A stretch of DNA of 64,000 nt from Synchiropus splendidus. Taxonomy: Eukaryota; Chordata; Actinopteri; Syngnathiformes; Callionymidae. This document shows positions 23,101 to 26,100 of this stretch, one piece after another (the stretch's first letter is position 1; each line of letters opens with the position of its first letter). Position numbers and translations under genes: made by a program. The stretch spans positions 4,092,001 through 4,156,000 of the forward strand of contig NC_071350.1 of NCBI RefSeq assembly GCF_027744825.2, written 5' to 3'. The notes beneath the pieces were generated by a model. The model was not told the DNA's origin and did not search any database. It saw only the letters and a program-made list of their open reading frames with translations.

Positions 23101-26100
23101 TGGAGTGAAAAAGACACATCACGTTGTCAAACCTTGACAAATAAACGCATTTTATCAGACTATATTGCTGGGTCATGCACTGGGTGTGTGTTATCTCAAC
23201 TTCAATGGGTGTGTGCTGTCTCTATTCCTCGGCTTTATTAATCTCTCATACCATTCATTAAGTTGACAGGACATCAGAATGAATGATGTCGTAATTGGTG
23301 GCCATAGTCTATGTCCTTCACAAGAATTTCAACTTCGTGTCAACGTCCCTAGGTTGCTTATTGTTTAGCAAAAGGCGAGAGATGAGGGGGAGGGTGCAAC
23401 AACGTCGATGTGTAATCCTCACTTCATGAATTTGTGAATGCACGCATGCATATGTGTGGTTAAAAGAGAGAACAATGCATGCATGATGGGTTCAGCTCCT
23501 ACTTACCAACAGGGCGAGCTGGTGACACAACAATGGTGACGATGACATTAAGGCATAAACACAGAGAGACGGAGAGCAGAGGAGCAGAACAGAGGGAAAA
23601 AAAATGAAAATTCAAGATGAATGATGAGGAGTTTGGTTCTCCAATGGTGACCTTCAGTCGGGTGGAGGATGAAGCTCCATCACCAAGCAGGTGATAGAAA
23701 GAGTGTTAAGGACATGTTTTTTCTGGTTAGAATGGCGAGCACTGACCAAAACCACAGGCTGAAATGATGTTATATGGAACCATCACTCGCTGTATTACTC
23801 TACAGATGATGATGGGATTCAGTTTTCACGTCACATTCCAGGTGAAATAAAAAAGTTGGATTGATGATAGCTCTCTGTCTAAGTGGCTCAACCTGAAGTC
23901 CCACCAAGTGCGTTTTCATTCTCTATACCAGCGACTCATTTTTCTCATTGATGTTCTCTGTGGTGGCTATTATTAGACTGTTGAGGAGTCTCAGGATAAG
24001 AGCTGAACTGGTGCATTTAGAAGGGAAAGTAGATGAAACTGCTCTTCATTTGAACAATATTGTACCAAGGCACCTATTGGAATCTTCATTTCTTTACCCT
24101 CAAGTGTCCCATTGGAAGAAATATAATCGGTTTTATATTGTTGTTTTATGAGTGATTATGAGTTCTATATTGATGAGAAATGTTAGTCACCTATCTATTG
24201 TTTCTGCATTGCCAAATGAAAAATGCATTCTACTTTAAATCTCAAATAAAGTAAGAATAATGCCGGTACAAGTAATCCACAAAACAAGATAGAGGACTTA
24301 ATTTGTGTACGTTTCTTGAAGGGCACAAGTCAGTAACAATATCTTTTAAAGAGAATTATTGTATTTATTTATTTACTTATTTATTAATTTTTATTTGATT
24401 TTAAATAGTGTACAAGGTTCAAAAGATGTTTCTCTCACTGTCAAATTTTTACATATCCGTGGCCCATTGAACACCATGTATGCTCACAGTGTAATGTCAA
24501 TCTGCAGTGACTGTAGCTCACTTTATTGAAGTGTGTGGGGAACAGAGGGGTGCCAAGAGGTGGATCCAATTCTAAATTAATGCCCTAAAAATAAAATAAT
24601 CAACAGAAAATTCACACCAGACGATAGTATTTTTGCTCTTCCACTCAGATCCCTGATGGTCCCCATAATTTTTAAGGAGCCAGCGACTCAGCTTGGACTG
24701 TGGTAGCCGCAGCAGTTTGTCTTTCTGTAGACGAATGTTGATAAAAACAAAACAAAAAAAACAAAAACACCTCATGTTAAGGCAGTCACAGACAGATTTA
24801 ATATACTAGATTCCAACACTCTTCTCGAGCCCCTTGTGGAAGCCTAGGCAAGCGGTGTTACGTTAAGTGTTACGACTGATCTGTGTATAAAGCTCAGCGA
24901 ACAGATAATTACTCGACAGTTAATATCCGGCACCAATATGCTTTATGATCCTTAGTGTTTCACAATACGGCCATATCATTTTCCTGAGCAGCATTTAGGG
25001 AGTGTGTGTGCGCGTCCCAGGGGACGTCACATCACTTGAAGCTGGTTAGACGGTTCATATTTGGGAGCTGGCTGGAGATCTAAAGCAATAAACTGCATCA
25101 TCCAGATGTATGAGAGGAGGCTGCAGCCCAGGGCACAGCCTTCCAGCAGGGGGGCAATAACACTCCTAAAATGAGCAATGAAAGACTGATTGTCCTGTAA
25201 CCTGCTTCGGGAGGGATAAAAAAATAAAATAAAATACACGGCATGGGTTATGAGCTTTGCCACAAGTGTGTACCCACCTCTGATGGTGAGGTAGGCAGAC
25301 GCCTCCACTTTACCCACACGGTTCTCAGCCAGACAGCTGAAGGTTCCCTGATCGCTGACTGACGCTTTCTTTATCCTGAGCAGGAAATCCTCTTTGTCAT
25401 ACTTGATGTCATATCTGGTGACAGAGAATTTCAGTCAGCGCTGTCACGACTTTCTCCCATCAAACTCTTCGGCAGATTTCAAACAGATAGAAGATCAATA
25501 GTGAAGCGAGACAACAACCGTTCACATGTTGATCAAGATAAACAAAGATCACAGGAAGTGTCATGTCATACATTTCGGCTCTGTGAGAAGTCAGACAAAG
25601 TCCTGGAACTCAAGCACGTTTGAGACAACAAACAAACAGGGCTTCTAATGATTATCAATTCAAATCACAATTACAATCCAGCGGAAGGAAAGAAAGAGAA
25701 TAATGGAGATGTTTTTTCATCCAAAGATGAGAAATTAAAGAGAAGCACACAACGTGAAGCGACAGCATAACAGTTTGTGTAGTAATTCACTACTGTCCTC
25801 GTGAATATTTTTGTTCCTTTACATAATTTTGGATCGGTTTTTGATCAGCATGGAAGTTAAATCACTAGTTTAAAAAAGTTGAAAGAATTGTTTTTAAAAT
25901 TAAACATTAAAAATTAGTTTTATATTGACAAACAGCACAGTGTTACACAAAAGTGAAAGCGGAACCGAAAATACTTGCAGCTATGCCTGCTGGTGTTACT
26001 ATGCTGACATATACCTTAATAAATGAAGTAGCATTTACATGAGATTTAAAACAACATATTATGGCTGTTGTTTAATATTCTGAGGTCTTGTTTAACAGAA

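Follow-up and report, generated by a model that had tools for sequence, protein, structure and literature searches.

The closest described system is microexon 6b (e6b) of the mammalian Robo1 and Robo2 genes, which measures 9 bp in Robo1 and 12 bp in Robo2 and, according to Johnson, Junge and Chen (2019; PMC6687390), on which the statements about mouse below also draw, is conserved in mammals and chickens. In Robo2, this cassette adds four residues to the Ig3–Ig4 linker and is accompanied by YCAY motifs in both flanking introns. In mouse, e6b inclusion rises on loss of Nova1/2, and mutation of the YCAY motifs in both flanking introns removes NOVA repression almost wholly. The two e6b forms show equal SLIT2 binding and equal surface delivery, and the included form confers the stronger repulsion; mouse Robo1 with e6b acts more strongly on CDC42 and RAC1, whereas mouse Robo2 without both e6b and e21 has no CDC42/RAC1 effect. 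The Robo2 ectodomain, as a review describes it (PMC7171467), adopts a hairpin fold that brings the dimer surface of domain 4 into contact with domain 7.

A description of e6b in fish was not found in the literature searched, which was mostly main text of open-access papers. The zebrafish and rat Robo2 isoforms of Dalkic et al., from 2006, reportedly concern an intracellular exon. Conserved neuronal microexons of zebrafish resemble e6b as short cassettes common to mouse (PMC12626424; MicroExonator, PMC7821500); the main text of the former names no Robo, and the latter mentions Robo2 once, in a reference. The mammalian exon and its role are already published, and the fish exon that we describe is a well-supported extension of this known switch.

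The robo2 exon 6–7 intron of Synchiropus splendidus

The window, by which we mean the whole 64,000-nt stretch analyzed, belongs to a genome of 583 Mb and carries on its minus strand the part of robo2 whose exons encode Ig2 through the third FN3 repeat (tblastn to human ROBO2); the Ig1 exon lies upstream of the window (locus L005), and the transmembrane and cytoplasmic exons lie downstream (locus L002). Among public proteins, this gene is best matched by a Robo2-like one from the dragonet Synchiropus picturatus (97% across the region scored). A protein search of the genome returned six matches to a robo-like exon 7 at E 3e-11 or better, the window included, for which we coined the names robo2a (the window gene), robo2b, robo1a, robo1b, and robo3-like. 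The features of the robo2a intron and its bordering exons are as follows:

25278..25414, minus strand: robo2 exon 6, encoding the latter half of Ig3, with the phase 1 donor AGAG/GTGGGT (sequence read; tblastn to human ROBO2; alignment to PDB 6iaa)
23100..25277, minus strand: robo2 intron between exons 6 and 7, 2178 nt, with the microexon inside (splice scan of the intron)
23519..23625, minus strand: intronic stretch 5′ of the microexon that matches robo2b, with a pyrimidine-rich tract (blastn, E 7e-9)
23548, minus strand: candidate branch point A, TTAAT
23522..23545, minus strand: four YCAY, candidate NOVA sites, between the candidate branch point and the 3′ splice site (motif count)
23507..23518, minus strand: microexon e6b, 12 nt, CTCGCCCTGTTG, adding Ala-Arg-Pro-Val (sequence read; splice scan; peptide shared with public fish and tetrapod Robo2)
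23478..23483, minus strand: first TGCATG, candidate Rbfox site (motif count)
23445..23450, minus strand: second TGCATG, candidate Rbfox site (motif count)
22975..23099, minus strand: robo2 exon 7, encoding the first half of Ig4, with a phase 1 acceptor (sequence read; tblastn to human ROBO2)

Exon 6 ends in ACC ATC AGA G/GTGGGT (last exon base 25278), and exon 7 starts at 23099 with ctccag/AG GCG CCT CAG. Between them, the microexon reads ttgtgtcaccag/CTCGCCCTGTTG/gtaagta on the minus strand (23518–23507), with AG before it and GTAAGT after it. It is in phase 1 on both sides and keeps the frame with its 12 nt, such that G/CT CGC CCT GTT G/AG yields A-R-P-V ahead of the junction Glu; the protein is TIR-ARPV-E-APQF with the microexon and TIR-E-APQF without it. 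Direct reading, with coordinates rechecked, confirms the earlier sequence-only reading of this DNA, which had claimed a 12-nt minus-strand exon between a phase 1 donor and a phase 1 acceptor that adds Ala-Arg-Pro-Val. The same reading had cited as known a regulated e6b at this exon position of mammalian Robo1/2 that alters axon repulsion, in agreement with PMC6687390.

By tblastn and alignment to PDB 6iaa, a human ROBO2 structure whose construct is the skipped form, the microexon is located at the junction of the robo2 Ig3 and Ig4 exons. It is very probably the orthologue of mammalian Robo2 microexon 6b, that is, a 12-nt cassette that lengthens the Ig3–Ig4 linker by Ala-Arg-Pro-Val when included; it differs from the mammalian exon in coming from a fish and in being known here from sequence. 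Because gene, junction, length, and peptide all agree, we consider the e6b cassette common to ray-finned fishes and tetrapods, which places the Robo2 e6b switch, its peptide included, before the split between the two.

The insert in public Robo2 proteins

Among the best 120 listed tetrapod ROBO2 proteins (from mammals, alligator, a gecko, a ptarmigan, and two unnamed records), 95 read ARPV, 23 VRPV, and 2 AHPV ahead of APPQF; their ranking follows similarity to a human query that itself contains ARPV, and the list therefore speaks to the identity of the peptide, not to the frequency of its inclusion. The best 120 listed fish Robo2-like proteins divide into 44 with an R-P insert (41 ARPV and one each of ARPI, VRPV, and DRPV), 71 in which the exon is skipped, and five with other readings at the junction (GGYTL, GGYK, GGCLL, GGPLLPTLR, and DS). 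Counted by species label in this list (n = 75, one unnamed record of the 120 being counted as a label), an A/V-R-P-V/I insert is present in 36, the skipped form in 44, and both in 8, although the public gene models concerned may draw on protein homology in addition to RNA reads. A robo2a-like protein of the pipefish Stigmatopora (P0049) reads VRPV.

Gene predictors had been expected to miss such an exon, which these lists bear out in one respect only: public gene models of fish already include e6b, with the R-P insert in 44 of the 120 listed, but the model of S. picturatus puts intron sequence in its place. That model (P0001) does not use the microexon and extends exon 6 by GGYTL, the residues encoded by window intron positions 25264–25278.

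Paralogues, splicing motifs, and alternative readings

Exactly one microexon candidate is present in each of the four robo1/robo2 exon 6–7 introns of this genome (0.6 expected in total), and the two robo3-like introns (L040 and L041) contain none at the same cuts. Besides the window microexon, the candidates, all from the splice scan, are as follows:

Locus L037, about position 2152 of the reversed locus: robo2b candidate microexon, 12 nt, ATGGGAATGTTG, peptide DGNV
Locus L038, about position 3983: robo1b candidate microexon, 9 nt, TTGTGTCTG, strong splice sites
Locus L039, about position 2639: robo1a candidate microexon, 9 nt, TCAACCCTG, strong splice sites

Their lengths, 12 nt in the robo2 pair and 9 nt in the robo1 pair, are those of mammals. 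The robo1 candidates thus resemble mammalian Robo1 microexon 6b (PMC6687390) in position and length, and differ from the window exon in gene, length, and peptide (VVS in L038 and VNP in L039). Public S. splendidus models of the second robo2 are identical to L037 over 88 scored residues, except that the microexon is skipped. Intron conservation was tested between the paralogues of this single genome by blastn: robo2a and robo2b align in their exons, and their best intronic match (68%, E 7e-9; next best, E 0.02) begins at 23625, takes in the microexon, and stops with its donor at 23500, leaving the downstream motifs outside the match. Comparison of robo2a with each of the two robo1 copies gave no such match at the microexon.

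Upstream of the window microexon, YCAY motifs occur at −27, −21, −18, and −7, exactly the four within 27 nt that had been reported from the sequence; all four lie between the candidate branch point at 23548 and the AG, and such a density in the last 30 nt is equaled in 0.75% of 30-nt windows of the robo2a locus. Downstream, the two reported TGCATG motifs stand (23483–23478 and 23450–23445), but the stretch holds three YCAY (+17, +20, and +47), not the two that had been counted. Within 100 nt there are five YCAY on each side of the window microexon, for totals over both flanks of 10 in robo2a, 8 in robo2b, 13 in robo1b, and 9 in robo1a. Taken jointly, these 40 motifs compare with about 16 expected (P 2e-5 under random placement within introns; 1e-5 with exons included). 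Taken singly, the counts are reached at 13% of intron positions for robo2a, 5% for robo2b, 0.3% for robo1b, and 8% for robo1a, and the window's own count within 100 nt is not exceptional. TGCATG, which we take to be the Rbfox consensus, occurs within 100 nt downstream twice in robo2a, once in robo2b, and in neither robo1 copy (P 0.002 for the robo2 pair, 0.006 for all four); the two robo1 exons have none within 200 nt downstream. The tests on both motifs were run after the sequence-only reading had named them, on intron slices whose boundaries are in places a few bases out.

The genome contains two loci with 95 to 96% identity to a NOVA KH domain. By analogy with mouse, fish NOVA proteins would bind YCAY on both sides of the microexon and repress it. 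A protein sitting on the upstream motifs would presumably impede use of the 3′ splice site, and Rbfox at the downstream TGCATG may favor inclusion. The downstream TGCATG motifs are noted here, whereas “Rbfox” occurs once in PMC6687390, in a reference title. Slit binding should be unchanged by the microexon, as in mouse. The four added residues may instead alter the Ig3–Ig4 hinge and loosen a folded, self-inhibited ectodomain with domain 4 covered, such that Slit would free domain 4 more readily, and the included form would be predicted to show stronger CDC42/RAC1 signaling and stronger axon repulsion. Regulated inclusion of the fish microexon is probable by comparison with mouse. As to the proposal that cassette and splicing code are both shared across bony vertebrates, the cassette holds on gene, junction, length, and peptide, and a code shared with mammals is suggested indirectly by the joint YCAY enrichment of the four paralogues and by the TGCATG of both robo2 copies.

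An exon-like 12-mer produced by chance, and no exon at all, would be unremarkable on pattern grounds: the bare YAG-N12-GTRAGT is not rare, occurring four times in the window against 2.08 expected. By our splice scoring (simple and rough), the microexon is the sole candidate of 3 to 51 nt in its intron with both splice scores equal to or above its own, an open frame, and the phase, as well as the sole 12-nt candidate on both strands of the window at its own scores, a cut that was chosen after the microexon had been seen; looser cuts give nine candidates in 228 kb (0.039 per kb), the window microexon among them. Its acceptor is weak (simple score of 0.7, versus 4.6 for exon 7), which fits a regulated exon and proves nothing. 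Scans of the window returned no Rfam match at the gathering score, no viral-contig match to the exon and its splice sites, and no repeat or tandem repeat that could be tied to the microexon. Near certainty comes from comparing the microexon with other proteins and not from motif scoring: fish and tetrapod proteins in public databases carry the identical peptide at this junction, which refutes a chance origin for practical purposes and leaves it a negligible probability, and the paralogue introns hold candidates of matching lengths. A different 5′ splice site for exon 6, one that would append GGYTL or similar residues instead of the microexon, agrees with the S. picturatus model (P0001) and with three further models that read GGYK, GGCLL, and GGPLLPTLR. 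Yet GGYTL corresponds in the window to ordinary intron sequence (25278–25264) before a poor donor (CTT/GTGGCA), the added residues vary between species, and GGYTL equals ARPV plus Glu in length, as might come from a homology-guided model unable to place a 12-nt exon. We reject the extended donor as very improbable; GGYTL is probably an annotation artefact.

Granting a real microexon, the motifs could still be bystanders, with inclusion set by factors other than NOVA and Rbfox or by none. The modest YCAY count of the window for its intron is in keeping with this, and other regulators such as Srrm3/4 are possible. Such independence is nonetheless unlikely, given that 71 of the 120 listed fish models skip the exon and eight species have both forms, that YCAY enrichment holds for the four paralogues taken together, and that the mouse orthologue is NOVA-repressed via YCAY in both flanks (PMC6687390).

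The peptide of the second robo2 copy

The robo2b candidate of the window genome encodes DGNV, versus ARPV in robo2a. Among the matches listed, the robo2b insert is D-type in all six species of Syngnathiaria and Pelagiaria and ARPV in all 44 other species with an insert; this list holds the 120 best matches to a query that itself contains DGNV and so ranks D-types first, its counts are based on 118 rows (P0114 and P0121 were left out as already listed), and robo2b membership follows similarity and names. The D-x-x-V peptides are DGNV in Synchiropus picturatus, DRNV in Doryrhamphus excisus and Scomber scombrus, DGRV in Phyllopteryx taeniolatus and Hippocampus comes, and DRSV in Dunckerocampus dactyliophorus, with Pelagiaria represented by one species. 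Lineages were looked up for Synchiropus splendidus, Scomber, and Phyllopteryx; Doryrhamphus, Dunckerocampus, and Hippocampus are presumably in Syngnathiaria, and none of the 44 ARPV species is known to be in Syngnathiaria or Pelagiaria. One robo2b-like model of Anabas carries an unrelated insert, alongside one with ARPV. Skipped forms occur in 13 species of this list, nine of which also have the inserted form (both forms were present in eight species of the first fish list).

A possible, if tentative, history is that e6b was retained in the two copies of robo2 following the fish-specific genome duplication and that the common line of Syngnathiaria and Pelagiaria recoded the second copy from ARPV to D-x-x-V, the first keeping ARPV. 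If true, two receptors would carry two switch peptides at the same hinge, one axon-guidance switch having been split between duplicates. Since the e6b switch predates the split between ray-finned fishes and tetrapods and both copies are suggested to have retained it through the fish genome duplication, the axon-guidance switch known from mouse becomes testable in transparent fish embryos, and the D-x-x-V copy of seahorse, dragonet, and mackerel relatives offers a natural comparison for which of the four residues matter.

One Robo2-like model of Salmo salar (P0083) reads DRPV, another change of Ala to Asp at the first position. On two contigs of the window genome, robo1-like and robo2-like genes lie close together in opposite directions (C17, at 4.05 and 4.12 Mb; C8, at 14.48 and 14.58 Mb), as expected for a duplicated ROBO1–ROBO2 block.
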